A stretch of 64,000 nucleotides of DNA from Streptomyces sp. NA02950 (GTDB lineage: Bacteria > Actinomycetota > Actinomycetes > Streptomycetales > Streptomycetaceae): the NCBI RefSeq assembly GCF_013364155.1, contig NZ_CP054916.1, positions 1,425,001 to 1,489,000 of the forward strand, in the 5' to 3' direction. The translations under genes were made by a program, and so were the position numbers. This document shows, piece by piece, positions 38,501 through 55,321 of the stretch; position 1 is the first letter of the stretch, and every line of letters starts with the position of its first letter. The notes under the pieces are model-generated. The model did not search any database, was not told the origin of the DNA, and saw only the letters and a list, made by a program, of their open reading frames with translations.

Positions 38501-41500
38501 GTCCCCGCCACGGGCGGTGAGGCGACCACCGAGCACGTCTACACCAACCCGACGGGCAGCCCCTACACCGCCACCGTGACCTACGACGGCGACGCCCGCT
38601 TCACCGGCTCGGTGAGCACCCTCACGCACACCGTGTCCCAGGCGCTGTCCACGACGGTGGTCAGCTCCGCCCCCGATCCGTCGGCGGCGGGCGAGCCGGT
38701 GACCGTCACCGCCACGGTCTCGGCGGTGACGCCGGGGGCCGGAACCCCCACCGGCACCGTCACCTTCGACCTGGGCGACGGCAGCCCCGCGGTCATCACG
38801 GCGGTGACCGGGGGCACCGCCACCATCACCCATACCTGGACCACCACCTCCGGGAGTCCGTACGCCATCACGGCCGCCTACAGCGGTGACACCGGGTTCA
38901 CCGGCTCCACCGGCAGCGACACCCAGACCGTGACCCCGGCCGCGACCACCACCGCCGTGACCACCTCGCCCGACCCCTCGGTGGCGGGCCAGCCGGTGAC
39001 CGTCACCGCCACGGTCTCGGCGGTGGCGCCGGGGGCCGGAACCCCCACCGGTACCGTCACCTTCACCTTCGGCGACGGCACGCCTTCCGTTGCCGCGCCG
39101 CTCGCCGCGGGGCAGGCGACCGTCGCCCACACCTGGGCGGGCACCGCGGGGAGTCCGTACACCGTCACCGCCGACTACCACGGGGACGCCGACTTCAACG
39201 CCTCGACCGGCACCGACAGCCAGTCGGTCGACCAGGCCGCCACCGATATGACGCTGGTGTCCTCCCCCGACCCGTCCGTGGCCGGGCAGGAGGTCACCTT
39301 CACCGCCAGGGTGGCGGCCGCCGCCCCGGGCGCGGGCGCCCCCACCGGCACCGTCACCTTCGACTTCGGCGACGGCAGCACACCGGTCACGGCCACGGTC
39401 TCCGCCGGGGCGGCGACCATCAGCCACTCCTACGCGGACTCCGACGGGAGCCCCTACACGGTCACCGCGAACTACAGCGGGGACGCCGACTTCGCCCCGG
39501 CCACCACCACCGACCTCCACACGGTGTCGGCCGGAGCCGCCACCACCTCGACGACGGTGGTCTCCTCCCCCGACCCCTCGGTGACCGGGCAGCCGGTCAT
39601 CTTCACCGCCACCGTGGCCCCGACCCCGCCCGGCGGCGGAGTGCCCACCGGTACGGTCTCCTTCGACTTCGGCGACGGCACGGCGATCATCACGGCACCG
39701 GCCATCGGCGGGGTGGCGACGGTCGCCCACTCCTATACAGCGACGGGCAGCCTTTACACGGTCACCGCCAGCTACAGCGGCGACGGCGACTTCAGCTCCT
39801 CCGCGGGCTCGGACACCCACACGGTGGGCCCGGCGTCGACGACCACCACGGTCACCTCCGCACCGGATCCGTCGGTGACCGGCCAGCCGGTGACCCTCAC
39901 CGCGGCCGTGGCGCCGGTCGCGCCGGGTGCGGGTGTGCCCACCGGGATCGTCACCTTCGACTTCGGCGACGGCAGCCCCACCGCGATGGCGCCCGTCTCC
40001 GGTGGCGTGGCCCGGATCACCCATACGTACACCGCCGCGGGCGGCCCCTTCACGGTCACCGCCGACTACAACGGCGACGCCGGCTTCACCGCTTCCAGCG
40101 GCACCGACACCCAGACGGTCGGCCGGGCCTCCACGACCACCGCGGTGGTCTCCTCCCCCGACCCGACCGTGGCCGGACAAGCCACCACCATCACCGCCAC
40201 CGTCGCCTCCGCCGCGCCCGGCACCGGAACCCCCACCGGCACCGTCACCTTCACCTTCGGCGACGGCACGCCCACCGTCACCGCACCGGTGAGCAATGGC
40301 CTGGCGGTGGTCGCCCACACCTACGCGGGGACGTCCGGCAGTCCGTACACCCTCTCCGCCACCTACAACGGCGACACCAACTTCACCACCTCCAGCGGCA
40401 CCGACACCCAAACCGTCAACCGGGCCGCCACCACCACGACCGTGGTCTCCACCCCCGACCCCACCGTCACCGGACAAGCCACCACCATCACCGCCACCGT
40501 CGCCTCCGTCGCCCCCGGCACCGGAACCCCCACCGGCACCGTCACCTTCACCTTCGGCGACGGCACCGGCAACGCCACCGCCACGCTCTCCGGCGGCGTG
40601 GCGACCCTCACCCACACCTACGCGGGGACGTCCGGCAGTCCGTACACCCTCTCCGCCACCTACAACGGCGACACCAACTTCACCACCTCCAGCGGCACCG
40701 ACACCCAAACCGTCAACCGGGCCGCCACCACCACGACCGTGGTCTCCACCCCCGACCCCACCGTCACCGGACAAGCCACCACCATCACCGCCACCGTCGC
40801 CTCCGTCGCCCCCGGCACCGGAACCCCCACCGGCACCGTCACCTTCACCTTCGGCGACGGCACCGGCAACGCCACCGCCACGCTCTCCGGCGGCGTGGCG
40901 ACCGTCAGCCACACCTACGCCACCAGGACCGGAAGCCCCTTCTCCATCACGGCCACGTACAACGCGGACGCCGACTTCACGGCGTCCAGCGGCACCGACA
41001 CCCAGACCGTCAACAAGGCGAACACCACCACCACGGTGTTCTCCGCGCCGGATCCCTCGGTGGCGGGCCAGTCGGTGACGTTCACCGCGACGGTGGCGCC
41101 GCAGACGCCCGGGAACGGCACCCCGACCGGCACGGTCACCTTCACCTTCGGCGACGGTACGGGCAGCACCACGGCGACGCTCTCCGGCGGGGTCGCGACG
41201 GTCACCCATCCCTTCAGCGGAACCTTCGGCAGTCCGTACGCCGTCACGGCCACCTACAACGGCAGCGACAGCTACAACACCTCCAACGGCACCGACACCC
41301 AGACCGTCAACAGGGCATCGACCACCACGAGCGTGGTGTCCACACCGGATCCCTCGACGGCCGGGCAGTCGGTGACCCTCACCGCTACCGTGGCATCCGT
41401 CCCGCCCGGCGCCGGAACCCCCACCGGTGCCGTCACCTTCAGCTTCGGCGACGGCACCGGCAACGCCACGGCCACGCTCTCCGGCGGCCTCGCCACCGTC

Positions 41501-42190
41501 ACCCACACCTACGCCACCAGGACCGGAAGCCCGTTCCCCGTCACCGCCACCTACAACGGCGACACCAACTTCACCACCTCCAGCGGCACCGACACCCAGA
41601 CAGTCGGCAAAACCGCGACCACCACCACGGTGACCACGAACCCCGACCCGTCGGTGGTGGGTCAGTCGGTGACCGTCCGGGCGACGGTCGCCGCCGCGAC
41701 CGGCGCTCCCACCGGGACGGTCACCTTCTCCTTCGGCGACGGGAGCGCCGCCGTCACCGCTCCGCTCGTCGTCGGCATCGCCACCGTGACCCGCACCTAC
41801 ACGACGACGACCGGAAGTCCGTTCACCATCACCGCCACGTACAACGGCAGCGACAGCTACAACACCTCCAGTGGCACCGACACCCAGACGGTCAACCGGG
41901 CGACCACCACGACCGCCGTGGTCTCCTCGCCGAACCCCTCGACGACGGGTGACCCGGTGACCGTCACCGCGACCGTTTCCGCGGTCGCCCCGGCGACGGG
42001 CACCCCGACCGGAACCGTCACACTCGCCATTCCCGGGCGTACCCCGCAGACCGTGACCCTGGTCAACGGTGTGGCCTCCGGGACGTTCAACCCGCTCCAG
42101 AAGGGGACCCACACCGTGACCGCCAACTACAACGGCTCGGTCAACTTCGCACCCTCCGCGGGGAGCACCACGCAGCAGGTGACCAACTAG
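32549..42190 (+). CDS. Giant repeat protein: 3 IPT/TIG domains plus 29 Ig-like repeats carrying FGDG
   Basis: A 3213-residue protein. Residues 1-~104 resemble one blade of a YVTN beta-propeller (VIVTDRGGDCLAVVDPDSHR). Residues ~104-350 are three IPT/TIG domains (FPDQGPYSGGTLVTIIG; VPDAGPIGGGNVVELTG; TPSTGPIAGGSIIVLTG). Then come 29 repeats of about 99 residues with pattern TTTVTSSPDPSVVGQPVTFT, GTPTGTVTFDFGDG, and SPYTITATYNGDADF. This is a bacterial Ig-like type 3 frame with a PKD-like FGDG insert. The last repeat lacks FGDG. There is no signal peptide, LPXTG or terminal membrane helix. ATG 32549 (MLTPYRPCG) follows TGGAGCCGTC, although the frame is open from 32177. An adhesin or surface-filament role is possible, but the export route is unclear. 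Confidence 0.88.
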   Translation: MLTPYRPCGLVIVTDRGGDCLAVVDPDSHRLVRTLRTPIPLVARSAAPDRLVVCTAADVTGVPATLDTAALFGSLPRPRPGAGPLLAPARFGAADDPPGILLEAMSGVFPDQGPYSGGTLVTIIGHHFTLATDVSFGPHPAASFSVLDDQTIVAVSPWGTGAVPVTVTTPGGTAPIGTFYYIPWPRLKTVVPDAGPIGGGNVVELTGINLSTAQLVYFGDSFAFPTAVSDQQLLVTAPPATAAGTVPVYVATAGGVSNRLAYTYEPVPSVTDVTPSTGPIAGGSIIVLTGTGLSRVTGVSIGGVPAVSFRASSDTLVVVVTPPGTPGSADITVTTPGGTVTLPGAFGYLAPTETAVSSAPDPSVVGEPVTFTATVTGVPPTTGTPTGTVTLAFGDGTDPVTVALTDGTATVGHAYTAPSQAPYAITATYNGEVLFFPSTGTDTQVVTAASTTTALTGAPDPSQTGQPVTFVARVAPVAPGAGTPTGTVTLDFGDGAPTATLPLSGGAATVDHAYADTGGSPYTVTADYSGDANFNPSAGSDTQTVGQASTSVAVGISPLPSVAGQPVTVTATVTAVAPGAGTPTGSVTFDFGDGSPPAVVTLTGGTAETTHTFTGTAGSPYTITASYSGDPDFSAAAGTSAATVGPSSTTTTVSSGPDPSVAGEPVTITATIAAVPPGAGVPTGTVTFDFDDGTAPVTVPLSGGSAETTHTYSGTSGSPFSLTATYNGDTDFTGSLGNDSHTVQLSGTVTTLTSTPDPSAVGEPVDFTATVAALPPGAGIPTGTVTFDFGDGTPIVTVVVGGVAEATHSFSAAAGTPYTVTATYNGDADFATSAGTDLQTVQTADTTTAVTSTPDPSAVGEATTFVAEITPVAPAAGSPTGEVTFEFSDGAAPVTVPVTGGVATVTRPNPDVTDSPYTADVTYGGDNNFNPSAGSDTHVVTQGVSKTVVTTAPNPSVTGQVVTLSATVAAGPPASGTPTGTVTFDYGDGTATVTVPLSGGGAEVSHAYANASQTPYQVTVTYDGDVNFVPSTGTALHSVDPAATTTTVTAAPDPSVTGEAVTVTVTPDGPGAGIPTGQVTLDFGDGTPILTAELVNGTVTVHHAYTSASGSPYTVTGAYAGDEDFAPSEDTISHIVDPADTTTTVTSSADPAAVGQTVTLIARVTPVPPGAGAPTGTVVFDFGDGSSPVTVPVSGGIATTTHSYGSTAGSPYTVTASYSGDEDFDTSTGTAAQRVEADVSSTSTTVTSSPDPSVVGQTVTFTATVAVLPPASGTATGTVTFEFGDGTAPVTSPVSGAGTATATHVYTAAVGSPYTVTAVYGGDADFAGSAGVDSQTVNLAATTTTLTSAPDPSVTGEPVTFTAAVAPVTVGAGTPTGTVTFDFGDGSDPILAPVADGTATAVHPYAGPSGSPYTITATYNGDASFSASTDTETQTVNQAATSTALFSSPDPTVVGEPVTVTAAVMPVAPGAGTPSGTVTFDLGDGTATVTVNTVGGLATVTHPYATASGSPYTITATYNGDTGFAASTTTDTHTVHPASTATTVTVGQGPTVVGEPVTVTATVATVPPGAGTPTGTVTINFGDATAPVTAPLVGGAVTLTHAYTTALGSPYTITATYNGTADFGASVATATHTVTQDATTTSVTAAPHPSVVGQPVGYTATVAPVGPGGGSPTGTVTFDFGDGTTAAVPVVAGVATADHIFTATSGSPYTVAVTYSGDIDYTGSSDTFTQTVGQAMSTTAVALSPVPSVAGQQVTVTADVSVAAPGAGTPTGTVTFDFGDGSAPVTAPLTAGLAAVTHTWTSSSGSPYAVTADYSGDADVAPSTGSAVQSVAPATTTTAVDTSPDPSVSGEPVAVTATVGVVAPGAGTPTGTVTFDFGDGTPEVTAVVADGSATVSHAWVDTVGSPYTVTATYNGDADFTTSSGTDTQTVAPATTSTSVITLPNPSVTGQPVTFIARVAPDAPGEGTPTGTVTFDFGDGSAPDAVPATGGEATTEHVYTNPTGSPYTATVTYDGDARFTGSVSTLTHTVSQALSTTVVSSAPDPSAAGEPVTVTATVSAVTPGAGTPTGTVTFDLGDGSPAVITAVTGGTATITHTWTTTSGSPYAITAAYSGDTGFTGSTGSDTQTVTPAATTTAVTTSPDPSVAGQPVTVTATVSAVAPGAGTPTGTVTFTFGDGTPSVAAPLAAGQATVAHTWAGTAGSPYTVTADYHGDADFNASTGTDSQSVDQAATDMTLVSSPDPSVAGQEVTFTARVAAAAPGAGAPTGTVTFDFGDGSTPVTATVSAGAATISHSYADSDGSPYTVTANYSGDADFAPATTTDLHTVSAGAATTSTTVVSSPDPSVTGQPVIFTATVAPTPPGGGVPTGTVSFDFGDGTAIITAPAIGGVATVAHSYTATGSLYTVTASYSGDGDFSSSAGSDTHTVGPASTTTTVTSAPDPSVTGQPVTLTAAVAPVAPGAGVPTGIVTFDFGDGSPTAMAPVSGGVARITHTYTAAGGPFTVTADYNGDAGFTASSGTDTQTVGRASTTTAVVSSPDPTVAGQATTITATVASAAPGTGTPTGTVTFTFGDGTPTVTAPVSNGLAVVAHTYAGTSGSPYTLSATYNGDTNFTTSSGTDTQTVNRAATTTTVVSTPDPTVTGQATTITATVASVAPGTGTPTGTVTFTFGDGTGNATATLSGGVATLTHTYAGTSGSPYTLSATYNGDTNFTTSSGTDTQTVNRAATTTTVVSTPDPTVTGQATTITATVASVAPGTGTPTGTVTFTFGDGTGNATATLSGGVATVSHTYATRTGSPFSITATYNADADFTASSGTDTQTVNKANTTTTVFSAPDPSVAGQSVTFTATVAPQTPGNGTPTGTVTFTFGDGTGSTTATLSGGVATVTHPFSGTFGSPYAVTATYNGSDSYNTSNGTDTQTVNRASTTTSVVSTPDPSTAGQSVTLTATVASVPPGAGTPTGAVTFSFGDGTGNATATLSGGLATVTHTYATRTGSPFPVTATYNGDTNFTTSSGTDTQTVGKTATTTTVTTNPDPSVVGQSVTVRATVAAATGAPTGTVTFSFGDGSAAVTAPLVVGIATVTRTYTTTTGSPFTITATYNGSDSYNTSSGTDTQTVNRATTTTAVVSSPNPSTTGDPVTVTATVSAVAPATGTPTGTVTLAIPGRTPQTVTLVNGVASGTFNPLQKGTHTVTANYNGSVNFAPSAGSTTQQVTN
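40314..40903 (+). repeat. Exact tandem duplication of one Ig-like repeat (297-bp period)
   Basis: Bases 40314-40606 are identical to 40611-40903: 293 of 293 positions by direct reading, offset 297 bp or 99 codons. Other repeats in the gene have diverged at the DNA level, so this copy is recent. It covers Ig-like repeats 24 and 25. It is likely the product of unequal recombination, and homologous strains may differ in copy number. Confidence 0.9.
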
Positions 42191-42234
42191 GCCCTGTCCG
42201 GGGACCGGCCCGTGGCCCGGCCCGCCGCTTCGGC

Positions 42235-45200
42235 TCATTCCTCCGGATGGGCGGTGTCCGCGGGCTCGGCGGTCTCCGGCCGCTTGTACATCCGGGTGGC
42301 CGTGATCTGGCCGTGCACCTGCTCACCCTCCGGGTCACGCTCGGGCAGACCCGGCCGCAGATGCTCCTCGACGCTGATGTACTTCAGCCCCGCCCGCAGG
42401 TCCGCGTCATTGCGCAACCGGATCACCAGTGGGAACTCGGCCAGCGCCGTGGTGTCGAACAGCCCCGTGGTGTACAGCAGCTGCACGCCCAGGGCGTCGG
42501 CGACCGCCCGCTGGAGCTCCAGCAGATAGGTGGCGTTGGCCCGGCCGATGGGGTTGTCGAGGAAGAGCGTGCCCGCGTGCCGGTGCTTGTCACGGCCGCG
42601 GTCGTTGCTGCGCAGCGCGGCCATGGTGCAGTACAGGGCGATGGCTGCGGTCAGCAGCTGACCGCCGGAGAACACGTCGCCCATCTGCCCGACCGGCACC
42701 CGCTCGGCCCGCAGCACCGCGTCCGGCTTGAGGATCTCGACCGCCACGCCGCGCGGCTGGAGCGCGGCCTGAACTCCGCGCAGCAGCAGGGACATCCCGT
42801 CCCGGCGCAGATCGGAGTTCTTCTTCACGGCGGAGCGGGTGGCCTCGTCGATGACCTCGCCCAGTCGCTCCGTCAGCGTCGCCTGGTCCGGGTCGTCGAA
42901 GCGGATCCGCAGGAACTCCTGGCCCGACCACTCGCCGAGACCCTCCGGCAGCCGGGACAGCCGCTGGGCCGAACGCAGCGTGGCCAGGCAGGATTCGACA
43001 AGGCCGCGCAGCCGGTCGACGATGCTGTCGCGATTGCGCTCCAACTGCTCCAGTTCGTCGGTCAGTACGCGCAGCCGGGGTGCGAACGCCTCGGCCCAGG
43101 CCGCCGCGTGCTCGGGCAGGGCTGCCGCGGGCAGTTCGCGGATCTGCTGGCGGGCCGGGGTGCGCACCTGCTCGTAGCGGGTGGAATTGGCGTGCCGTAC
43201 CAGCACATCGCTCGCCTCCCGGACGGCCGACTCGGCCCCCGAGAGATCGGCGGCGCAGCCGCGCAGCGAACGGCGGGTCTCGGCCGCGGCCTGGCGGGCC
43301 TCGGCGAGGTCCCCGGTGTACGGCTCGGGGCGCTCACCCTCGTCGTCCGCGGCACCCGGTCCGTCGCGCAGCAGATCCCGCAGCAGCGCGGCGGTCTCGT
43401 CGAAGCCGCCCGCCGCGTCCTCGGCGGCGCGGTGCGAGCGCAGCAGCTCGGCGTGGACGGTGCGGGCGGTGTCCAGCGCGTCGGTGCGGGCGGCCAGTTC
43501 GGTGGTGGCGGTGCGCAGCAGCTCCTTGGCCCGCTCGGCGTCGGCCGGGACCAGCTCCTCGGGCAGCTCGGTGTGCGCGTCGCCGTCGCCGGCGGGGGCG
43601 AGCCGCTCGGCCTCGCCGCGCAGCCGTCCCAGCTGTTCGCTCGCCGCCGACGCCCGCGTCTCCAGCATCTGCACCAGCGATTCGGCGCGGGCCGCCGCTG
43701 CCTGGCGGGAGGGGCCGTCGGCGCCGTCGGTGCCCTCGAGGAGCTGGGCGGCGCGGGTGCGGACCTTGTTGGTGAGCCGGTCGAGGGCGGCGAGGGCCGC
43801 ACTCTCGTCGCTTTCGGCGCGGGCCTGTTCGGCACGGAGGTCGGCGCCCACGCCGACCTTCTCGTACACCTGGGAGGCGGCGCGGTACGCCTCGCGGAGC
43901 GCGGGCAGCGAGGCGGTGGGCGGCTCGGTCTCCTCACCCAGGTCGTCGGGCGCGCCCGCGATCTCGGCCCGCTCGGCGCGCAGGGCGCGGGCGGTACGGC
44001 GCGCGTCGTCGGCGGCGCGCTGGGCCGCGCGCCGGTCCTCGTCGGCCGCGCGCGCCCGGTCCACACAGGCGTCGGCCCGCTCCTCCGACTCCGCGGCCTC
44101 GTCGGCCAGTTCGCGCAGCCGGGCCTGCCAGGCGGTGCGCCGGCGCAGCCGGTACGCCAGACCGGCCAGCGCGTCCGCCACGCGGCGGGCGCGCTGCGCC
44201 GTCTCCTGCCGCTCGTCGCGGACCCGGGCCGCCTCGGTGGCGGCCTCATCGGCCTCGGCGCGGGCCGTCCGCACCTCCACCAGCTCCCGCTGTGCGGCGT
44301 CCGCCGTCTGACGGGCCTCCTCGGCCGCGGCCCTCAGCTCGGTGAGCCGCCCCTGCGGGCAGCCGGTGCGCCAGGACGCGAGCCGCGCGGCCAGCGCCCG
44401 GTCTGCCTCCAGCCGGGCGGCGAGCGCCCTGATCTCCTCATCGCGGGCGGTGGCGCGGGCGCGCAGCTCACGCCGCTCGTCGTCGGCGGCGCGCTCGTCG
44501 TGCATCGCCGGGTTCGGCGGCACCAGGAACACCCCGCTGTCCCGCTCCCCCGGCGCGGGCGTCGGCGCGAGCAGCGCGGCTGCGGTGCCGACGGCCACGG
44601 CGGACCGCGGCAGCAGCGACGCCTGCGCCAGCACCCCGCGGGCGCGGGCGTGGGTGTCGGGGTCGGTGATCACGACCCCGTCCACCAGCTCGGGGCGGGC
44701 CGCGAGCACGGCGGCGTGGTCGGCGGGGTCGACGGCCTGGGCGAGATAACGCCACCCGGGGAGCGCCGGAATGCCGTGCTCACCGAGGAACTCGACGGCG
44801 GCCAGCACATCCGGGCTGGGCGGCAGCAGCCCGCCGTCGCCGAGCGCGGCGAGGATCCGCGAGTCATCGGCGGCGGCGGTCCGCAGCTCGAAGAGCTGCC
44901 GCTCGGCGGAGGCGACGCTCTCGTCGAGCAGTTCGCGCAATGCCTCGGCGTTCCGGTCCAGCTCCTGGGCGGTCAACGGCCCTTCGGGCCGCAGGGGTGC
45001 GGGGGCGGGCCGGTCCCGCGGCGGACGCGGAGCCTGTGCGGTGTCCTCCCCCAGCTCGGGATCCCAGCAGCCGGGGTCGTCGATGGACTCGCCGGTCGCG
45101 CCGTCGTGCTGGGCGCCGGGCCGGGTACGGGCCGCGTCCGCGGGGGCGTTCCCCGTGTCCGCGTGGGGCGCGGAGCCGGACGCCTCCGGCGCGTCCGAGC

Positions 45201-48066
45201 CCTCGACATCGGCCGAAACGCGCCCGGCCGGCCGCGACTCGGCGGCCACCGCACGGCGACGGCGGCGCTCCTCGCCCACGTCCCCGTCCTCGACCCGGAC
45301 GGTCACCCGCCCCGGCGGAACGGCGTCCGCCGCCACGGTGCGGGCGGCACCGCCCGCGTCGACGGCCGGGGCCCCGCCCCCGCCGTCCGTCCCGGGCATG
45401 GACTGGGCGGCCGCCGGACGGCCGTCCACCGACCGTGTGCCGGCGGCACCATCCGCGTCGGCCGCGGAATCCGGCGCGCATGCCTCCCCTTCCACGCCGC
45501 CCTCCCGGACCACCGCACCGGCCCCCGGCGCAGGCGCCCCGGCCGCCTGGTGCGACCCGCCGTCGACGGCCGGGTTCCCGTCCCTGCCGTCCATGTCGGG
45601 CCCAGGCTCGGGGGCCCACGCACGGCCGCTCAACGGGACGTTGCCACGCTCACCCGACTCCGCTGTGCGGGCGGCACCGGCCGCGTCGGCCGCGGCAGGT
45701 GTCCTGGCCTGGTACGCATCGCCGTGGGCTTCGGGGCCGTCCTCGGCGTGGGTGGCCGTCCGGGCGCGGGGTTCCGCCGTCGGCAGGCTGCCGTCCGCCG
45801 CGGACCCGTGCTCCGCCGCGTCAGTGAACGTCCCGCGGGTGTCCCCGCCGTTCTGGGCCGCCCCGCGGGCGGTCGGCCCGGCCAGGACCGGCGCACCGTC
45901 ATCGGCCTCGTCCTCGTCGTCGTCCTCGGCGTCGTCCTCGGCGTACGGGCCGGGCTCGGGCGCGAATGGGCCGTCGCGGTTCTCCGCGCGGAAGGCGGCG
46001 GGGAGTTGGGCCAGGCCCAGCATGTCGTCCGCGTCATCGGTGTCGTCGACCGGGACCGTGATCCACCCGGCCCGGCCGGATTCGGCGGGCAGCGGTCGGC
46101 CGCCCCCCTTCGGCGGGGTGGCCCCGGCGGCCGGGATGCGCACGGTCACGGCCGCCGCCCCGCCCGACCGCGCCGCCGACGGGCGGTCGGTGCCGCGGGG
46201 GGCGGGGACGGGGGCCGACGGCTGGGGCAGGCCGAGCAGTTCGAGCAGGCGCTGTTCGGCGCCGAGCGCCTCCGCCGTACGCCGCTCCCCCTCGTACGCG
46301 GACTCCGCGGCCCGCGCCGCGTCCGCCGCGCGCGCGGCGGCCAGTTCGGTGCGGGCCTGTTCGGCGGCGGCCGTCTTCGCGTGGTCGGCGGTGCGGCGGG
46401 CCGTCTCGCGGGCGGCGTCCCAGGCCGCGGTCGCGGTCTTCTCCGCGTCGCTCGCGGCGAGCGCCGCACGGGCCGGGTCGGCGTCCGGGGCCGAGTCGTC
46501 GAGCCATCCGGCGCGTACGGCCTCGGCGGTCTCCTGCTCGACCTCGGTGAGCCGCTGCCGCAGATGCTCGGCGTCGCTGCGGGCGCGCTGGGCCGCGGTG
46601 GCGGCGGCGGTGGCGTCGCGGTGGGCGCACTCGCCGGTCTCCTGGAGGGCGGCGGAGCGCTCCTCCTCCTCGTTCGCGACCCGTTCGCCGTCCTCGGCCG
46701 CCGCGTGCAGGGCGCGTACGAGGTCGCCGGCGGCCTTGGCGCGGGCGGCGAGGGCGGGGGCGGCGTCCCGCTCGGCCTCGCGGATGGCGGCGGCGACGCG
46801 CGCGGAGCGGTCGGCGGCGGCGCGGTGGCGCAGCACGGTCTCGGCGGCCTGCCAGGCGGAGTGCAGGGTGCGGGCGTCGTTCAGCTCCCGGCGCTGCGCG
46901 GCGGCGCCCTTCTCGGCGGCGGCGAGCGCCAACGAGGCGTGGCGGTAGGCGAGTTCGGCGGCGACGAGGTCGCTGCGGCCGCGCGCCGTCTCCGCCTCGG
47001 TGACGGCGTGCGCGGCCGAGGCCACCTGCTGGGCCAGTTCGGCGGCGCGGCCGCGCTCCTCCGCGCCCCGCGCACCGAGGCGCCGGGCGAGCGTACGGGT
47101 GCGGCGCTCGGCGCCCGCGTGCACCCCGCGCGCCTGCTCGCGACGGTCGGCCGCCTCGGCGATCCGCGAGAGCAGATCCAGCGAACCGGCGGTGAAGTCC
47201 CGTTCGGCCGTCAGCTCGGCGCGGCGGCCCAGCTTGTGCGCGAAGCCGTGGACGAGGTCGGCGAGCCCGTCGGTGTCCCGGGTGTCCGTGACGGCGCGCA
47301 GCAGCAGATCGGTGAAGTCGGAGTCGTTCTTGACGGCGAAGAGCCCGGCCGCCTCGCCCTCGTCGGCGTTCATCTCCCGCTGGTAGCGGAAGAGTTCGGG
47401 GTCCAGGCCGAGGTCGCCGAGGTGTTCGTTCCAGCGCTCGTGGATCTCCACCCAGACGACGTCCAGATGCGGATACGCCTTGCCCGCCTCGGTGAGCGCG
47501 TCGCGGAACCCCTTCATGGTGCGGCGGCGGCCACGGGCGATGGACGCGCCCTCGGCGATCGGCCGCACCGCCACGGACTCGGCGACCGGCAGTGAGTCCA
47601 GGCTGAGCCCGGGGCCGGGGCGGAAGGAGTACCACGCCTCGGCGAACTTGCGCGGGTCATTGGAGATCTGACGGCCGCGCCACTCGCTGACCTTGCCGAC
47701 GACGACGGTCTCGCCGGTCACGGTGTGCTGCCACTCCAGGGCGACATGTCCGCAGTCGTCGGCCAGCAGGAACTTGCGCAGCACACCGGAGCTGGCGCCG
47801 CCGAGGGTGTTGCGGTGGCCCGGCAGCATCACGGAGAAGATCAGCTTGAGGAGGACGGACTTGCCGCCGCCGTTCTCCAGGAAGAGCACGCCCGCGGGGG
47901 CCGGGCGCCGGGGCGGGCCGACCGGCTCCGCCTCGAAGAACTCCGCCTGGGTGGGCGCGGGGCTGGGCACCGGCTCGCCGACTCCGCGCAGGTCCAGCAC
48001 GGTGTCGGCGTAGCGCGCACCGGCCGGCCCGATGGAGTAGAGGCGGACCCGGGACAGCTCGTACAT
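42235..48066 (-). CDS. Giant SMC/MukB-like ATPase with acidic disordered insertion
   Basis: 1943 residues. The N-terminal head has Walker A LFLENGGGKSVLLKL (Gly67-Ser70). Coiled coil runs from ~290 to 612. Residues ~613-1028 are Pro/Ala/Gly/Asp-rich and probably disordered. A compact hinge-like domain follows (~1072-1165, LPGWRYLAQAVDPADHAAVL), then a second Ala/Glu/Arg coiled coil (~1185-1700). The C-terminal head has an ABC signature DVFSGGQLLTAAIALYC (~1798) and Walker B GTLFLDNPIGRAN (~1833), where Asn replaces the usual catalytic Glu. The architecture and its place after kleisin- and MukE-like genes suggest a MukBEF/MksBEF/JetABC-type loop extruder. I cannot place it in a named subfamily. 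A housekeeping or anti-plasmid role is possible. Confidence 0.82.
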   Translation of the reverse strand: MYELSRVRLYSIGPAGARYADTVLDLRGVGEPVPSPAPTQAEFFEAEPVGPPRRPAPAGVLFLENGGGKSVLLKLIFSVMLPGHRNTLGGASSGVLRKFLLADDCGHVALEWQHTVTGETVVVGKVSEWRGRQISNDPRKFAEAWYSFRPGPGLSLDSLPVAESVAVRPIAEGASIARGRRRTMKGFRDALTEAGKAYPHLDVVWVEIHERWNEHLGDLGLDPELFRYQREMNADEGEAAGLFAVKNDSDFTDLLLRAVTDTRDTDGLADLVHGFAHKLGRRAELTAERDFTAGSLDLLSRIAEAADRREQARGVHAGAERRTRTLARRLGARGAEERGRAAELAQQVASAAHAVTEAETARGRSDLVAAELAYRHASLALAAAEKGAAAQRRELNDARTLHSAWQAAETVLRHRAAADRSARVAAAIREAERDAAPALAARAKAAGDLVRALHAAAEDGERVANEEEERSAALQETGECAHRDATAAATAAQRARSDAEHLRQRLTEVEQETAEAVRAGWLDDSAPDADPARAALAASDAEKTATAAWDAARETARRTADHAKTAAAEQARTELAAARAADAARAAESAYEGERRTAEALGAEQRLLELLGLPQPSAPVPAPRGTDRPSAARSGGAAAVTVRIPAAGATPPKGGGRPLPAESGRAGWITVPVDDTDDADDMLGLAQLPAAFRAENRDGPFAPEPGPYAEDDAEDDDEDEADDGAPVLAGPTARGAAQNGGDTRGTFTDAAEHGSAADGSLPTAEPRARTATHAEDGPEAHGDAYQARTPAAADAAGAARTAESGERGNVPLSGRAWAPEPGPDMDGRDGNPAVDGGSHQAAGAPAPGAGAVVREGGVEGEACAPDSAADADGAAGTRSVDGRPAAAQSMPGTDGGGGAPAVDAGGAARTVAADAVPPGRVTVRVEDGDVGEERRRRRAVAAESRPAGRVSADVEGSDAPEASGSAPHADTGNAPADAARTRPGAQHDGATGESIDDPGCWDPELGEDTAQAPRPPRDRPAPAPLRPEGPLTAQELDRNAEALRELLDESVASAERQLFELRTAAADDSRILAALGDGGLLPPSPDVLAAVEFLGEHGIPALPGWRYLAQAVDPADHAAVLAARPELVDGVVITDPDTHARARGVLAQASLLPRSAVAVGTAAALLAPTPAPGERDSGVFLVPPNPAMHDERAADDERRELRARATARDEEIRALAARLEADRALAARLASWRTGCPQGRLTELRAAAEEARQTADAAQRELVEVRTARAEADEAATEAARVRDERQETAQRARRVADALAGLAYRLRRRTAWQARLRELADEAAESEERADACVDRARAADEDRRAAQRAADDARRTARALRAERAEIAGAPDDLGEETEPPTASLPALREAYRAASQVYEKVGVGADLRAEQARAESDESAALAALDRLTNKVRTRAAQLLEGTDGADGPSRQAAAARAESLVQMLETRASAASEQLGRLRGEAERLAPAGDGDAHTELPEELVPADAERAKELLRTATTELAARTDALDTARTVHAELLRSHRAAEDAAGGFDETAALLRDLLRDGPGAADDEGERPEPYTGDLAEARQAAAETRRSLRGCAADLSGAESAVREASDVLVRHANSTRYEQVRTPARQQIRELPAAALPEHAAAWAEAFAPRLRVLTDELEQLERNRDSIVDRLRGLVESCLATLRSAQRLSRLPEGLGEWSGQEFLRIRFDDPDQATLTERLGEVIDEATRSAVKKNSDLRRDGMSLLLRGVQAALQPRGVAVEILKPDAVLRAERVPVGQMGDVFSGGQLLTAAIALYCTMAALRSNDRGRDKHRHAGTLFLDNPIGRANATYLLELQRAVADALGVQLLYTTGLFDTTALAEFPLVIRLRNDADLRAGLKYISVEEHLRPGLPERDPEGEQVHGQITATRMYKRPETAEPADTAHPEE

Positions 48067-48112
48067 GGCGGCAGAACTCTCGTTGTCGGCAGGGGGCGGA
48101 TGGATCCGGTCG

Positions 48113-49006
48113 TCAGGAGTGGAACGGCAGACCGGCGTCGGCGACGAGGTCGAGGTCGTCGGTTTCGTCGGGCGGCAGCAGGGTGGCGCTGCCGTCGCCG
48201 ACGGGCACGACGCCCAGCTCCAGCAGCTCGGTCATGGCGGCCCCGGCCGCCATGTCGCGCACCTGGAGCTGGTAGCGGGCGGTGGTGCGGTACGCGCCCC
48301 CGGCGTCGTCCCCGGTGCGCTGGAGGAAGCCGGAGTCGACGAGGAAGGCGACGGCCTTGCCGACGATGCCGGTGGTCGAACCGGCGAGCCTGCGCGCGTC
48401 CTTGGTGGCGCCGGTGGCGCTGCGCCGCGCGTACACCCGCCAGGCGGCCTCGAGCCCGGGGGCGTCGGTGGCCGGGTCGGTGTTGTCCCCCTGCTCCTCG
48501 GCCCGTTCCTCGAGACGGCGGCACGCCTGGCGGACGAAGGCGTCGATCCCGTTGACGGTGACCCGGCCGATATAGCCGTCGTCGGCGAGGTCCTCGGGGC
48601 GGGGGAAGGCAAGGGCGGCGACGGCGAGATGGGCGAGGCCGTGCAGAAAGCGGTCGGCGGAGTCGGTGTTGGCACGGCGGGCGTAGTCGCCCATGCGGAC
48701 GGCGAAGACGGAGTCCTCGGCGGCCGTGACGGCCATCCCGGCGCGGGTGGACACCTCCAGCACGATCAGGCCGAGCCCGGCGGCGACGGCGTCGGTGAGC
48801 CGGGCGAAGGCCGGTTCGTCGCGGTGGCGGCGGAGCAGCTCGGCGTACTCGACGTCACGCGCGGGCAGCAGCTTGGGCTGGAGTCCGAAGGCCACCAGCC
48901 GCGCGGCGTCGGCCGCGTCGGCCGGGGTGACCCCGCCCGGCGCAGCACCGGACGCCGCCGCGGGCTCCGGGTGGGCCGCCTCGTCGAGGGCGTCGTACTC
49001 GGTCAC
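48113..49006 (-). CDS. MukE/JetB-like small subunit of SMC complex (putative)
   Basis: A 297-residue soluble protein. The first ~45 residues are low-complexity. The rest is helical with winged-helix-like segments (VEYAELLRRHRDEPAFARLT; VGKAVAFLVDSGFLQRTGDD followed by YRTTARYQLQVRDMA). In MukBEF- and Wadjet-type operons the gene between kleisin and SMC encodes a small winged-helix dimer (MukE, MksE, JetB). Position, size and fold pattern fit, but primary sequence alone does not prove homology. GTG 49006 follows AAGGAG with good spacing and overlaps the stop of the 28-codon ORF by 4 bp. The SMC gene starts 46 bp after it. Confidence 0.68.
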   Translation of the reverse strand: MTEYDALDEAAHPEPAAASGAAPGGVTPADAADAARLVAFGLQPKLLPARDVEYAELLRRHRDEPAFARLTDAVAAGLGLIVLEVSTRAGMAVTAAEDSVFAVRMGDYARRANTDSADRFLHGLAHLAVAALAFPRPEDLADDGYIGRVTVNGIDAFVRQACRRLEERAEEQGDNTDPATDAPGLEAAWRVYARRSATGATKDARRLAGSTTGIVGKAVAFLVDSGFLQRTGDDAGGAYRTTARYQLQVRDMAAGAAMTELLELGVVPVGDGSATLLPPDETDDLDLVADAGLPFHS

Positions 49007-49089
49007 GGGTGAAGCTCCTTGGGAGGGGCGTACTGCGGGGCGTACTCACGGCTGACGAAGGGGACGGCGGTCCGCGGGGCGTGCGGCAT
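49003..49089 (-). CDS. 28-codon small ORF coupled between kleisin-like and MukE-like genes
   Basis: A 28-residue ORF beginning MPHAPRTAVPFVSREYAPQY and ending KELHP. Its ATG overlaps the upstream TGA (TGATG) and its TGA overlaps the GTG of the next gene (GTGA). A strong GGAGGTGG ribosome site precedes it by 7 nt. The exact double overlap suggests it is really translated, either as a microprotein or as a ribosome relay for the MukE-like gene. It is Pro/aromatic-rich with no membrane segment, unlike anything I recognise. Confidence 0.5.
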   Translation of the reverse strand: MPHAPRTAVPFVSREYAPQYAPPKELHP

Positions 49090-50630
49090 CACGCCACCTC
49101 CGCTCGGTCCGCGGCCATTCCGGCGGCGTCCAGCAGGGCCGTGCCGACGATGAGGTCGGCGCCGCCGAACTCCGGGTCGTCGAGTTCGGTGCCGTCGTCG
49201 ACGGCGAAGAGCAGGCGCTGTTCGCCCTGGCGGTAGGCGGTGCCGACCGGGGGGCTCGCGGCGTGCACGGCCAGGAGGGCGATGAGGTACGGGAGGTCGG
49301 CGTCGCGGCGGCGGGCGTCGGTCAGCAGGCCCGAGAGACGGCGGGGGGCGTCGGCCGGGAGGTCGAGCAGTTCCATGGCCATCGCGAGCTGCTCCTCGCT
49401 GAAGCGGCTGTCGTCGGGGGTGGCGATCAGATCGGGCTCGGGCATCTCCGCGCCGAGGTGCTCCCGCTCCACGGGCGGGGTGAGCAGCATCTCCACCAGA
49501 TCGCCCAGCCGGACCGAGGTCGGGGTGCGCGGCCCCGTACCGCGGGCGAAGAAGGCGTCGGTGACCCGGCCCGCGCGCTCGACGGGGAGCGGGAGCAGCG
49601 GGGCCAGCAGCTGTCCGTAGAGGTCGAGTCCGGCGCGGGCGGCGGGCGCGGCGAACGCCTGGCGGTCCTGCTCGGCACGGAACAGCGGCCCGGCCTCCAG
49701 CAGCCGGGACTGGAGCTGGGTGTGACGGCGGATGCAGTCCTTGACGATGTCGACCAGCTCGGCGGCGCGCCGCTTGTGCTCGGAGTCCCGTCCAGAAGCA
49801 GCCTCGTCGCGCGCCTTGCGGATGTTGGTGAGGATCGCGTTCTCGTGGCGGTAGCGGTCGGCGACGTGGTCGAGCGCCTCGTTGATCATCTCGGGGACGG
49901 TGGTCAGCCAGTCGACCGCGCGGACGTTCCGCCGGGTGGCGTCGAGGGTGCGGCGCAGGCTCTCCGAGTACTGGACGGTGCGGTAGCGGGCCTGCTCGGC
50001 GGCGAGTTGGGCGTCGGCGAGACGGCCGCGGCTGATCAGCACCTCGAGCTTGACCTCGGCGGCGATCTGGGCGCTGGTGACGTCCGTGTCGAGGGCGCCG
50101 ACCAGGACGTTGACCGCTTCGTCGGTGGTGCGCAGATAGACGGTGCCGCCGGGGCCGGGCACCTCCTCGATCAGCTTGAAGTCGTAGTCACGCCGGACAT
50201 ATGCGCCGTCGGCACCGAAAGTGCCGTAGACCGCGCGGAAGCCGCGGTCCACACTGCCGACGTTGACCAGGTTCTCCAGCACCCAGCGGGCGACGCGCTC
50301 GTGCTCGGCGGCGGGGCGCGCGGGGGCCTGGGCGGCGACCCGGGGCAGCAGTCTGGCCACTATCTGGTCGTGGTCGGCTCCGGTGTCGAAGTCCATGTGG
50401 AGCGTGACGAGATCGATGGCGGCGAGGGCGACCTCGGCCATCGCGTACACCCCGTACTCCCCCGCCAGGTTGGCCTTGCGCGCGTCGAGGTCGTGCAGCG
50501 GCGCGGTGCACGCGAGCGCGCGCAGCCGCCGGGCCAGGCCCTCGTCGGCGGCCGGGCCCGGTGCCGGGCGGGCGGGCCCGGCATGGCCGTTGAGCTGGGG
50601 CGCAGTGGCCCCGGGGGGTGGAGATGTCAC
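49089..50630 (-). CDS. Kleisin-like (MukF/MksF/JetA-type) subunit of SMC complex (putative)
   Basis: 513 residues, largely helical. A winged-helix-like N-terminal half (EHERVARWVLENLVNVGSVD; DYDFKLIEEVPGPGGTVYLR) leads to TDEAVNVLVGALDTDVTSAQ. Next is a long amphipathic helical stretch (EVLISRGRLADAQLAAEQAR, RYRTVQYSESLRRTLDATRR). The TDEA...RG-A-R pattern after a winged helix is what I know from kleisin-type JetA/MksF proteins. The C-terminal ~180 residues contain another small domain. GTG 50630 was chosen (VTSPPPGATAPQL). The frame upstream is Arg-rich and atypical. It is first in the order kleisin, small ORF, MukE-like, SMC. Confidence 0.68.
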   Translation of the reverse strand: MTSPPPGATAPQLNGHAGPARPAPGPAADEGLARRLRALACTAPLHDLDARKANLAGEYGVYAMAEVALAAIDLVTLHMDFDTGADHDQIVARLLPRVAAQAPARPAAEHERVARWVLENLVNVGSVDRGFRAVYGTFGADGAYVRRDYDFKLIEEVPGPGGTVYLRTTDEAVNVLVGALDTDVTSAQIAAEVKLEVLISRGRLADAQLAAEQARYRTVQYSESLRRTLDATRRNVRAVDWLTTVPEMINEALDHVADRYRHENAILTNIRKARDEAASGRDSEHKRRAAELVDIVKDCIRRHTQLQSRLLEAGPLFRAEQDRQAFAAPAARAGLDLYGQLLAPLLPLPVERAGRVTDAFFARGTGPRTPTSVRLGDLVEMLLTPPVEREHLGAEMPEPDLIATPDDSRFSEEQLAMAMELLDLPADAPRRLSGLLTDARRRDADLPYLIALLAVHAASPPVGTAYRQGEQRLLFAVDDGTELDDPEFGGADLIVGTALLDAAGMAADRAEVA

Positions 50631-50724
50631 GTCGCACAGAGTAGGCCGTCGCACCGACAACGGACGAAACGGCACGGAGATCCCGCTATGACGCCCCAGA
50701 TCCCCCGCAGGTGGGTCCGTGGAC

Positions 50725-50744
50725 ACGCGCGCTGGTGCGCGCGT
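50725..50744. terminator. Alternating CG hairpin between 5-oxoproline operon and SMC operon
   Basis: ACGCGCGC (50725-50732) and GCGCGCGT (50737-50744) form a perfect 8-bp stem with a TGGT loop. A second GCGCGCGT follows at 50747-50754. It lies downstream of the DUF2891 gene and upstream of the kleisin-like gene. It may act as a terminator, or the alternating purine-pyrimidine tract may favour Z-DNA. Confidence 0.45.
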
Positions 50745-50787
50745 CCGCGCGCGTACACCGGGCCGTCTCCCGTGACTCACCGGCGCG

Positions 50788-51897
50788 TCAGTCTACGGCT
50801 CCGTGGCCGGGTGGTCCGTCCAAGGCGAGCGCCGCGAAGGTGGCGAGCCAGTGGTCGCCGGTGAAGTCGCCGGAGGCGGTGTGCGGAAGTCCGGCGGCGA
50901 GGTGGTCACGGGCGGCGGCCGTCAGCACCGGCACCCGTGGGTCACCGGGCGGCAGGGCGGCGGACAGCCTGCGCAGCGCGGCGGCCCTGCTGAGGGAGAG
51001 CCCGATGAGATGACCGATCTGCGGGTCGGCGGGGTCGGAGACCACGGGTGGGGTGAGGAGGGCGGCGGACGCGCGGCGCCCGGGACCGGATTCGGTACCG
51101 GATGCGGGACCGGGGTCCGAAGGCTCGAGGCCGGGGAGGAAACCCGTCAGCCAGTGGCCGAACTCCGCCCGCGGAAGCACCCGGCAGACCGCCTCCGCCT
51201 CGCTGAGCGCCGGGGACAGGAAGTCCTGGCCGGAGGGTTCCCAGTGGACGGGGGCGTCGTGGTCGTCGGCGAACCAGCCGAGAACGGCCTTGGCGGCGGC
51301 TTCGGCCAGCGCGCCGCGGCCCGCGGCGGGCGCGCTGTCGAGGACGAGGCCGAGGGCGAAGGCGCTGTTGGCGTGGGTGCCGTGGCGTACCGGGTAGGTG
51401 GCCCGCGGCAGCCAGCCGCGCAGCAGCTGTTCGACCGCGTCGGCCGCCGGTTCCAGGGCGGCCGCCCAGCGTTCGCCCGCCACGCCGCCGAGGGCGCGGC
51501 ATTCGGCCGTCAGCGCGAGCAGCCAGGTCCAGCCGTAGGGGCGTTCGAAGGACGGGTTGGCGCGCAGATAGTCGGCCTCGGCGATGAGCGCGCCGGGTGT
51601 GAGATGGCGGTCCAGCACCTCGGTGATCGCGGCGGCGGGGACGCGGTCGGGGCAGCGGAGCAGCAGCCGGACCAGCAGCCAGTGCATATGGACGGCGGAG
51701 TGCCAGTCGTAGGAGCCGTAGAAGGCGGGGTGATGGGTGTGCGGCGGCACCAGGTCCTCGGGGCCGCGCAGAAGGTGTGCGGGTGCGTTGGGATAGGCCC
51801 GGGTGACGTTGGCCATCGCGACGGCGGCGAACCGGTCGGCGTATTGCCGGAATTCACCCGATATTGGATCCTCGCGGTGCGGGCGTTCCGTGCTCAA
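50788..51897 (-). CDS. DUF2891-family protein
   Basis: A 369-residue soluble protein of the DUF2891 family (FRQYADRFAAVAMANVTRAY; FYGSYDWHSAVHMHWLLVRL; ERPYGWTWLLALTAECRAL; HTNSAF-like THANSAFALGLVLDSA; PSGQDFLSPALSEAEAVCRV). It has an all-helical, possibly (alpha/alpha) toroid layout with conserved His/Trp/Glu residues that could form an active site. The biochemical function is unknown. TTG 51897 follows AAGGAGCCACCCA and overlaps the pcp stop (TTGA), so it is translationally coupled to pyroglutamyl peptidase. The longer frame upstream is an Arg-rich shadow of pcp. Context points to peptide or pyroglutamate metabolism. Confidence 0.82.
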   Translation of the reverse strand: MSTERPHREDPISGEFRQYADRFAAVAMANVTRAYPNAPAHLLRGPEDLVPPHTHHPAFYGSYDWHSAVHMHWLLVRLLLRCPDRVPAAAITEVLDRHLTPGALIAEADYLRANPSFERPYGWTWLLALTAECRALGGVAGERWAAALEPAADAVEQLLRGWLPRATYPVRHGTHANSAFALGLVLDSAPAAGRGALAEAAAKAVLGWFADDHDAPVHWEPSGQDFLSPALSEAEAVCRVLPRAEFGHWLTGFLPGLEPSDPGPASGTESGPGRRASAALLTPPVVSDPADPQIGHLIGLSLSRAAALRRLSAALPPGDPRVPVLTAAARDHLAAGLPHTASGDFTGDHWLATFAALALDGPPGHGAVD

Positions 51898-52538
51898 TGG
51901 GTGGCTCCTTCGGCAATGCGCAGATCCGTCCGGGTCCGCATCGCCGTGGCGAGGATGGCGCGCAGCGCCTCGGCGGCCATGGCGACGGGCAGCGACGGCT
52001 CGCCCCGGTCCACGACCTGTTCGGGCGCGTACGGGAGGTGGACGAAGCCGCCGCGCATCGTCGGCCGCCGGGTCGCGATCAGATGCGCGAGTCCGTAGAA
52101 GACGTGATTGCACACGAAGGTGCCCGCGGTCTGCGACACGGCGGCCGGGATCCCGGCCGCCCGGACGGCGGCGACACACGCCTTGACCGGCAGCGGCGCG
52201 AAGTAGGCGGCGGGGCCGCCCGCCACGACCGGTTCGTCGATCGGCTGCCGTCCGGCGTTGTCGGGTATGCGGGCGTCGTCGACGTTGACCGCGACCCGTT
52301 CGACGGTGATCTGCGGGCGGCCGCCCGCCTGTCCGACACACAGCACCAGATCGGGGTCGGCCGCCTCCACCGCGGCGGCCAACTCCTCCAGAGCGGTGCC
52401 GAAGACACAGCTCAGCCGGACGGAGGTGAGGTCGAGGCCGGGCGGCGGGGCGGCCGCCACGAGGGAGACGGCCGCCCAGGACGGATTGGTCTCCTCGCCC
52501 CCGAAGGGTTCAAAACCGGTCAGCAGCACCCGGGTCAT
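51894..52538 (-). CDS. pcp: Pyroglutamyl peptidase (pyrrolidone-carboxylate peptidase, C15)
   Basis: A 214-residue cysteine peptidase that removes N-terminal pyroglutamate from peptides in the cytoplasm. The catalytic triad is visible: Glu80 (ITVERVAVNVDDARIPDN), Cys143 (TAGTFVCNHVFYGL) and His167 (GGFVHLPYAPEQ). The N-terminal VLLTGFEPFGGEETNPSW and length are canonical. It is flanked by the DUF979/DUF969 membrane proteins upstream and DUF2891 downstream. pxpABC across the GntR gene would convert the released 5-oxoproline to glutamate. ATG 52538 follows AGGGAGGGAG. Confidence 0.95.
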   Translation of the reverse strand: MTRVLLTGFEPFGGEETNPSWAAVSLVAAAPPPGLDLTSVRLSCVFGTALEELAAAVEAADPDLVLCVGQAGGRPQITVERVAVNVDDARIPDNAGRQPIDEPVVAGGPAAYFAPLPVKACVAAVRAAGIPAAVSQTAGTFVCNHVFYGLAHLIATRRPTMRGGFVHLPYAPEQVVDRGEPSLPVAMAAEALRAILATAMRTRTDLRIAEGATH

Positions 52539-52553
52539 GAGAACTCCCTCCCT

Positions 52554-52617
52554 GACCAGAACCGACCAGAACCGACCAGAGCTGGTCAGAGCTGGTTAGA
52601 GCTGGTTAGAGCTGGTC
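52554..52617. repeat. 10-bp-phased ACCAG/CTGGT inverted repeat array before pcp
   Basis: ACCAG occurs at 52555, 52565 and 52575, then CTGGT at 52582, 52592, 52602 and 52612. Each series has an exact 10-bp period, and they meet in the palindrome GACCAG-AG-CTGGTC. It fills the gap between the DUF979 gene and pcp. As RNA it can form several alternative hairpins. As DNA it presents half-sites on one face of the helix. Confidence 0.75.
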
Positions 52618-52631
52618 AAAAGGTGAACGGA

Positions 52632-53600
52632 TCAGAAGGCGAAGAGGGAGATGATGGCGATGTTGCAGACCAGCAGCGCCCCCGCGGTGGGGATCTGCGC
52701 CTTGATGGGTCCGTATTGGTCCTTGAGTTCCAGCAGCGCGGCGGGCACCAGGTTGAAGTTGGCGGCCATGGGGGTCACCAGCGTTCCGCAGAACCCCGCG
52801 AGCATGCCGACGGCGAGCACCACGGGCGCGTCCCCGTGCATCTGCTGAATGAGCACGGGCCACCCGATGGCGGCTGTCATCACCGGGAAGGCGGCGAAGG
52901 CGTTGCCCATGATGATGGTGAACAGGGCCATACCGATGCAGTAGACGGCCACGGCGACGTACTTCTGGCCGTCCGGCAGCAGCTGTTCGGTGATCTTCCC
53001 GACCTGGGTGCCGACCCCGGCCACCTGGAAGATGGAGCCGAGTACGGCGAGCAGTTGGGGCAGCAGCAGCGCCCAGCCCATGGACTCCAGCAGCGACCGT
53101 CCGGCGTGCAGCGGCACCGTCGCACTGCGCTCGCGGACCACGACCATGGCGACCAGCAGTCCGGCGATCGCGCCGAAGCCGAGGCCGAGGATGGTCTCGC
53201 TGCCGGTCTCGAGCACCGGGGTGCCGCCGATGTGCCAGTGCTTGACGGCCGAGGCACAGAGGACGGCGACCAGCGGGATGGTGAGCGCGGGGATGAACAG
53301 CCGGTTGCCGAGCCGGGCGGCGAAGGCGACACGCTGCTCGGTCGTGGTGGTCCGCGGGACCCCGCGTCCGGTGAGGTCGAAGCCGCCCAGGCAGACCATG
53401 ACGAGGACGGCGACGCCCAGCGGCTCGGCGGGGGCCTTCTTCTCGACCACCCAGGAGCTGTAGAAGAAGCAGGCGCCCAGCAGTCCCCAGAAGGCGGCGG
53501 AGCCGTGGCGCCTGGGGTTGCTGCGGTCGAAGGCCATCTGGGCGGCCATCGCGAGGAAGACGGCGCCGACGAGCCAGAAGAACCACTCGGCCTTGATCAC
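52632..53600 (-). CDS. DUF979 membrane protein, putative pyroglutamate transporter subunit
   Basis: A 322-residue integral membrane protein with about nine hydrophobic helices (AEWFFWLVGAVFLAMAAQMA; NRLFIPALTIPLVAVLCASA; TILGLGFGAIAGLLVAMVVV; MGNAFAAFPVMTAAIGWPVL; FCGTLVTPMAANFNLVPAAL). It matches the DUF979 family, which normally occurs with DUF969 beside pcp. The two together look like halves of a small-solute permease, and uptake or export of 5-oxoproline is the natural guess. GTG 53600 overlaps the DUF969 stop by 4 bp. The frame to 53741 is an antisense-style extension without a ribosome site. Confidence 0.83.
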   Translation of the reverse strand: MIKAEWFFWLVGAVFLAMAAQMAFDRSNPRRHGSAAFWGLLGACFFYSSWVVEKKAPAEPLGVAVLVMVCLGGFDLTGRGVPRTTTTEQRVAFAARLGNRLFIPALTIPLVAVLCASAVKHWHIGGTPVLETGSETILGLGFGAIAGLLVAMVVVRERSATVPLHAGRSLLESMGWALLLPQLLAVLGSIFQVAGVGTQVGKITEQLLPDGQKYVAVAVYCIGMALFTIIMGNAFAAFPVMTAAIGWPVLIQQMHGDAPVVLAVGMLAGFCGTLVTPMAANFNLVPAALLELKDQYGPIKAQIPTAGALLVCNIAIISLFAF

Positions 53601-54319
53601 TTGGCTTCCTCCGCGGTGCGGCTGCCCACGGCAGCGGACGGTCCGCCCGAGGCGGCGATCTGGCTCTCCAGCGAGCGGTCCAGGCGCAGCAGCCGGAAGC
53701 CGTGGATGAGGAAGGCGCAGACGGCGGTGGGGATGGCCCACAGCGCGAGCTGCAACGGTTCCAGATGGGTGTGGTAGGTGGAGTTGACGAAGCCGGTGAT
53801 GAGCAGGATGGAGCCGATGGCCAGGAAGCAGTCCTCACCGAAGAACAGCCCGACGGTGTCGGAGCTGGCGGAGTAGGAGCGGATCCGTTCGCGCACTTTC
53901 TCCGGCAGCGGGCCGTGGCGCCGCTCGGCGGCCCCTTCGGCCATCGGCGCGACCATGGGGCGCACGCTCTGGGCCGGGCCGCCGATGCTGGTGAGGCCGA
54001 AGGCCGCGGTCAGCTGGCGCAGCGCCAGGTAGAGCGCGAGGAACCGGCCGGTGGTGAGCTTGCCGAGCTTGCCGATGAGGGTTCGGGCCTGCTCCTGGAG
54101 CCCGTGGCGCTCCAGGAGGCCGATGACCGGGAGGGTGATGACGAAGATCGTCACCGAGCGGCTGGAGGCGAAGCCGTTGCCGAAGGCCGCGAGGACCTCC
54201 TGGGGGGACAGCTTGCCCAGCAGCCCGGTGGCGATACCGGCGACCCCGACCACCAGCAGGGGATTGCGTCGTGTGGCGAATCCGAGGACCACCACAAGAA
54301 CGCCAAGGAGAACGATCAT
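53597..54319 (-). CDS. DUF969 membrane protein, putative pyroglutamate transporter subunit
   Basis: A 240-residue membrane protein (MIVLLGVLVVVLGFATRRNP; LLVVGVAGIATGLLGKLSP; RSVTIFVITLPVIGLLERHG; FFGEDCFLAIGSILLITGFV; LQLALWAIPTAVCAFLIHGF) with a conserved-looking loop LALRQLTAAFGLTSIGGPAQ, matching DUF969. It is first in the operon DUF969-DUF979-pcp-DUF2891. ATG 54319 follows GGAAGGCGGG. The in-frame codon at 54388 would include a charged N-tail and lacks a better site. A GntR-type operator lies 84-105 bp upstream. Confidence 0.83.
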   Translation of the reverse strand: MIVLLGVLVVVLGFATRRNPLLVVGVAGIATGLLGKLSPQEVLAAFGNGFASSRSVTIFVITLPVIGLLERHGLQEQARTLIGKLGKLTTGRFLALYLALRQLTAAFGLTSIGGPAQSVRPMVAPMAEGAAERRHGPLPEKVRERIRSYSASSDTVGLFFGEDCFLAIGSILLITGFVNSTYHTHLEPLQLALWAIPTAVCAFLIHGFRLLRLDRSLESQIAASGGPSAAVGSRTAEEAK

Positions 54320-54402
54320 GCGTCCCGCCTTCCGCGCGCAGGACCTCACGGCGCCGCGGGGGAGCACGACGGCATGAGGAGAACGCACCGGAGGCTAGAT
54401 GT

Positions 54403-54424: not shown

Positions 54425-54476
54425 CATGAAACCGACTTGTTCTCGTTCCGTCTGATCGTTTACTCCGGCGAAACCG

Positions 54477-55244: not shown

Positions 55245-55321
55245 TTTCGCTCCCATTCACGGCGTCAGCGCATTCCGTATCGCGAGAAGTCAAGCCCAGA
55301 AATGAGAACGGGACAACAACA

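Follow-up and report, generated by a model that had tools for sequence, protein, structure and literature searches.

A JetABC operon of the Wadjet type III kind without the JetD nuclease, conserved across the genus Streptomyces

Wadjet type III systems consist of four proteins (JetABCD), and a review presents the JetABC of relatives of the operon described here as extruding DNA loops, with a model in which JetD cuts once extrusion is complete (PMC10586767, accessible part). In the same text, MksBEF of Pseudomonas aeruginosa is treated as a chromosome-organising complex that likely arose when JetD was lost. In a survey, Wadjet was found to be enriched in Actinobacteria and at the ends of Streptomyces chromosomes, and the accessible part of that survey does not mention any JetABC lacking JetD (PMC10482375). 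The hinges of Wadjet III are said to lack a channel for obstacle bypass (PMC12647877, accessible part).

The window analysed here (the whole 64,000-nucleotide stretch from Streptomyces sp. NA02950) carries on its minus strand three genes in the jetA-jetB-jetC order of Wadjet type III. The jetA-like gene (49089–50630) encodes a kleisin of 513 aa if a GTG start is assumed, in a reading frame that stays open to 50780 (563 aa). It is followed by the jetB-like gene (48113–49006, GTG start), encoding a KITE subunit of 297 aa, and by the jetC-like gene (42235–48066, ATG start), encoding an SMC ATPase of 1943 aa. The intergenic gaps are 82 bp (jetA-jetB) and 46 bp (jetB-jetC), and codon-position GC is of the coding type in all three genes alike. 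On the same strand, the Walker A motif of JetC (aa 62–73, 47848–47883) lies at the opposite end of the protein from the ABC signature (aa 1798–1809, 42640–42675) and Walker B (aa 1832–1852, 42511–42573). A preliminary description of this DNA had proposed just such a leftward operon, with this gene order and these sizes, the motifs at opposite ends of the SMC and no nuclease gene, and our analysis agrees with it on all these points: the gene beyond the 3' end of jetC is a convergent one on the plus strand (32177–42190, 3337 aa) that ends 44 bp from jetC. In this long gene we matched 29 Big_3_5 (Ig-like) and 3 TIG stretches, so that it may encode a very large protein that is secreted or displayed on the surface. 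A relative (55%, best local match) is located downstream of jetC in another locus (L034). A minus-strand frame of 2352 aa that overlaps the end of jetC by 4 bases was considered as a fourth subunit and rejected, codon-position GC revealing it as the mirror of the 3337-aa gene. A scan of positions 42000–51000 for promoters and terminators found none.

Two of the Wadjet III subunit models in PADLOC matched proteins of the window, JetA3 (PDLC00567) at E = 1.5e-186 and JetC3 (PDLC00588) at E = 0 with 1424 bits. The JetB3 model gave no direct match to the 297-aa protein, which is encoded between jetA and jetC and is a homologue of JetB proteins from JetD-linked loci; among ten such JetB homologues the same model recognised three at E<0.001 (7.1e-5 to 8.5e-4), four only at 0.027–0.058 and three not at all. 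We can thus state with high confidence that this is a jetABC operon of the Wadjet type III kind without jetD, the JetA3 and JetC3 matches supplying the named Wadjet type that the preliminary description could not find for it. Sequence searches against solved structures returned chance-level matches for JetC and JetA on their own, and none for the JetA and JetB profiles. AlphaFold models of JetA and JetB, derived from 39 sequences, were poor (mean pLDDT 53 and 55), and in Foldseek neither of them reached a match with E<0.001; above that threshold the low-confidence JetA model resembled MukF and JetA, and for the JetB model MukE appeared only at rank 50.

Compared with described Wadjet type III systems, the operon shares gene order and JetA3/JetC3 homology, but it differs in that JetD is found neither in the operon nor in the genome, in being a genus-wide core gene set rather than a sporadic one, and in a variable linker that precedes the SMC hinge. 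With MksBEF it has in common the SMC, kleisin and KITE type of operon without JetD/MksG, whereas the type III models match here; this comparison is with MksBEF as described in that review. The review reports that MksBEF acts on the chromosome (accessible part of PMC10586767), and for Streptomyces JetABC we infer such a role. Unlike MukBEF, the three proteins match no Pfam family at E up to 1, the MukB, MukE and MukF families included, and they coexist with SMC and ScpA. An ABC-ATPase SMC and a kleisin are also the basis of Smc-ScpAB, but the 9.8-Mb genome of this strain encodes a separate canonical SMC (909 bits with its two pieces) as well as ScpA elsewhere.

Since the Pfam model JetD_C scores several type III JetD proteins weakly (25–37 bits), we built a JetD3 profile from the JetD genes adjoining type III JetC; all five such proteins scanned were JetD3 in PADLOC. 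Neither JetD_C nor this custom profile had any match in the 9.8-Mb genome. JetD was likewise absent from all 52 core loci, i.e. those fetched from the 90 Streptomyces genomes with a JetC3 match, where JetABC is a three-subunit SMC operon without a nuclease. In 45 of these loci the gene that comes next after jetC is convergent, and the other seven have no JetD match within the locus. No match was found either in any of the 80 best of 532 named related stretches, of which 63 include JetC with 1.3 kb or more of DNA following it, 13 stop too soon and 4 are without JetC. On the other hand, among 15 JetABC loci fetched from outside the Streptomyces core and Frankia clades, JetD lies directly 3' in 13 and is absent in one (L120); in the remaining one (L124) a contig end truncates jetC, and the trees and tables do not include it. 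The JetD3 profile detected JetD in 9/91 Streptomyces genomes (in one of them weakly) and Pfam did so in 12/91; one or the other matched in 16/91, leaving 75/91 without a match to either model. We hold the absence of JetD with high confidence.

JetC3 was present in 90/91 Streptomyces genomes, that of NA02950 included, the one miss (G078) being only 78% complete, and JetA3 in 386/392 (378/380 of good quality); two of the six genomes missed by JetA3 (G050, G072) nevertheless have JetC3. These tallies count any JetA3 or JetC3 copy, core status having been checked in the 52 fetched loci, whose genes were called by codon-position GC and not by a gene finder. The other core proteins are 73–95% identical to those of the window (best local match), and TTA codons occur in none of 156 core genes, so that control of the operon through TTA codons is without support. 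The best 80 of the 532 related stretches divide into 72 from Streptomyces, Kitasatospora, Actinacidiphila or Streptomycetaceae and 8 from Frankia, Parafrankia or Pseudofrankia. Genus-wide conservation can be asserted with high confidence: the locus belongs to the core rather than being a sporadic defence island, and it is probably inherited vertically. Of the 137 genera in the sample of the whole class just 8 had a JetC3 match; given this and a patchy occurrence in the Frankia family (see below), the complex is no general actinobacterial condensin. The preliminary description had proposed a distinct actinobacterial SMC complex, either a condensin beside SMC-ScpAB or a plasmid-sensing system with its nuclease encoded elsewhere, and this interpretation is partly supported.

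Within four genes on each side, the core loci partly share a set of neighbours, namely a small convergent gene (34/52), a nitrate-sensing histidine kinase gene (29/52) and a gene for a 147-aa protein (20/52); sets of this type are known as conservons. The window itself does not have these shared neighbours and carries the Ig-repeat gene in their place. Upstream and on the same strand (50788–55256, minus) are genes for DUF2891 (the Pfam match covers aa 170–506 of the frame, and the gene may start lower), a pyroglutamyl peptidase, DUF979, DUF969 and a GntR/FCD regulator, i.e. metabolic rather than defence neighbours. In 20 of the 24 contigs that measure 5 Mb or more the locus lies 5–20% from the nearer contig end; its median position is at 15% of the contig from one end and not mid-chromosome.

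The size of the SMC, to which the preliminary description had drawn attention, is real but untypical, since 47 of the 52 core JetC proteins have 1526–1624 residues. The excess lies in a linker of low complexity that precedes the hinge (approximately aa 613–1035, 44962–46230, minus strand). It is enriched in Ala, Gly, Pro and Asp and appears as an alignment gap in the JetC3 match. The interval between coiled coil and hinge amounts to 468 residues in the window and to 54–563 (median 85.5) in the 52 core loci, against 51–135 in 13 of the 16 Frankia-family loci (L107, L110 and L112 were left out), 48–74 in 13 JetD-linked loci and 50 in L120. On this comparison, the length of 1943 residues is a lineage-specific, fast-evolving low-complexity decoration and not a defining feature. 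Simple NG86 estimates of dN/dS on ORF segments of four pairs were 0.12–0.21 for the JetC domains and 0.17–0.23 for JetA and JetB (whose segments include upstream extensions), and for the linker (28–403 codons) 0.24 in one pair and 0.49–0.60 in the other three. Walker A, the ABC signature and Walker B are the same in 52/52 core loci. With the ATPase intact and constrained and only the linker loosely so, jetC is not a decaying gene. Walker B reads LDN instead of LDE, both in copies without JetD and in each of the seven JetD-linked ones for which the motif was listed, so that type III JetC may have a different catalytic base.

A second JetD-less clade was found in Frankia and its relatives, where none of 16 loci has JetD (13 are testable and 3 end too soon). 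Here JetA3 occurs in 19 of 35 genomes; JetD3 matches in 7 of the 35, two of them weakly, and the two strongest adjoin other JetC copies (L121, L122). Two Frankia-family jetC genes (L107 in G211 and L112 in G333) are in interrupted frames, either sequencing errors or broken genes. A JetC tree with 18 of the 52 core loci, 13 of the 16 Frankia-family loci, 13 JetD-linked loci and L120 gave full SH-aLRT support to the Streptomyces clade and to the Frankia clade, and placed the JetD-bearing copies together with L120 as sister to the latter. In a second tree (11 core, 8 Frankia-family and 9 JetD-linked loci, without the JetD-linked L002, L003, L069 and L070), a single common JetD-less clade was rejected by the AU test (p-AU 0.006; 3e-5 with L120 included). 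It follows that JetD was probably lost at least twice, bearing in mind that these are quick LG+G4 trees with long branches and that JetD may have been regained. The locus L120 (genome G468) is a third JetD-less JetABC, nested among JetD-bearing copies in the tree, and sits directly upstream of genes that by eye read as gapA, pgk and tpiA.

What, then, might a Wadjet motor do without its nuclease? As in its relatives, JetC dimers, closed by the JetA kleisin together with JetB, would extrude DNA loops using ATP. Without JetD these loops would stay uncut, and for this reason we infer that the motor may act on the chromosome as a condensin beside SMC-ScpAB, along the route proposed for Pseudomonas MksBEF. 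Judged from distribution and constraint alone, a domesticated Wadjet III JetABC minus JetD with such a chromosome-organising role is on balance the probable identity of the operon. Against it speak the position of the locus toward one chromosome end, the patchiness in the Frankia family and the few genera of the class that have JetC3, as well as a Hi-C study of S. venezuelae that credits the alignment of the chromosome arms to ParB and SMC (PMC8410768, accessible part).

A motor of defensive descent could also have kept a defensive task, still directed against plasmids or phages: JetABC would load on foreign circular DNA and compact or silence it, or hinder its replication, without cutting by JetD. 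Descent from the Wadjet family speaks for this, as do its JetD-bearing relatives, which are carried by plasmids and, in other Streptomyces strains, also lie next to the core copy, and which show that such elements are around; the location toward a chromosome arm fits too, as does the enrichment of Wadjet at Streptomyces chromosome ends in the survey (PMC10482375, accessible part). We nonetheless consider it unlikely, since near-universal presence in good-quality genomes together with low dN/dS is unlike the patchy JetD-bearing copies, and since the neighbours in the window are metabolic. The system might instead be a complete Wadjet-like one with its nuclease encoded elsewhere, a nuclease that has diverged beyond the reach of both JetD models or that is unrelated to JetD. 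Diverged members can indeed be missed, as the weak Pfam scores of type III JetD demonstrate, but the JetD3 profile scores high beside 13 other JetABC loci and finds nothing in this genome, and most Streptomyces genomes have JetC with no match to either JetD model, all of which makes a hidden partner improbable. Least credible by far is a functionless Wadjet remnant decaying after the loss of JetD. The missing nuclease, the large low-complexity insert in the SMC and the two interrupted jetC frames in the Frankia family could be read that way, but retention throughout the genus, motifs that are invariant in the core loci and dN/dS of 0.12–0.23 outside the linker leave it hardly any room.

To return to a chromosome-organising JetABC, its distribution suggests a defence motor turned housekeeping chromosome organiser. 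Both Streptomyces and Frankia grow as mycelia and form spores; if domestication did occur repeatedly, it would help them to manage the many chromosomes of their hyphae and spores. The fuller proposition, that nuclease loss turned an anti-plasmid Wadjet III motor into a second universal condensin of Streptomyces, and that the same conversion took place independently in Frankia, is one that we advance only tentatively and would not yet bet on. Streptomyces JetABC would apparently be a case of domestication separate from MksBEF, with its origin in another Wadjet type, and models of chromosome folding in Streptomyces may lack a universal SMC complex. The word Wadjet is absent from the accessible text of the S. 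venezuelae Hi-C paper (PMC8410768). The genus that keeps this complex throughout is tractable in the laboratory and has already been the subject of Hi-C (PMC8410768, accessible part), which makes the idea of domestication directly testable. In the literature searched, whose scope did not extend to most subscription papers and bioRxiv preprints, we found no earlier report of a nuclease-free Streptomyces JetABC. As a practical caution, a JetA3 or JetC3 match in a Streptomyces genome should not be taken as evidence of Wadjet defence.

JetD-bearing type III systems do occur in this genus. Type III JetABCD operons were seen on plasmids of Rhodococcus, Streptomyces europaeiscabiei and Polaromonas (L001, L002 and L003), the JetD of the S. 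europaeiscabiei plasmid being annotated only as a hypothetical protein although it matches JetD3 at 1.3e-57. One genome (G089) has a JetC3 match about 11 kb from each of its chromosome ends (L069, G089:C1:3107-20633, and G089:C1:9222605-9228027); the two score equally and both are accompanied by a JetD match, as if this Wadjet were located in terminal repeats.
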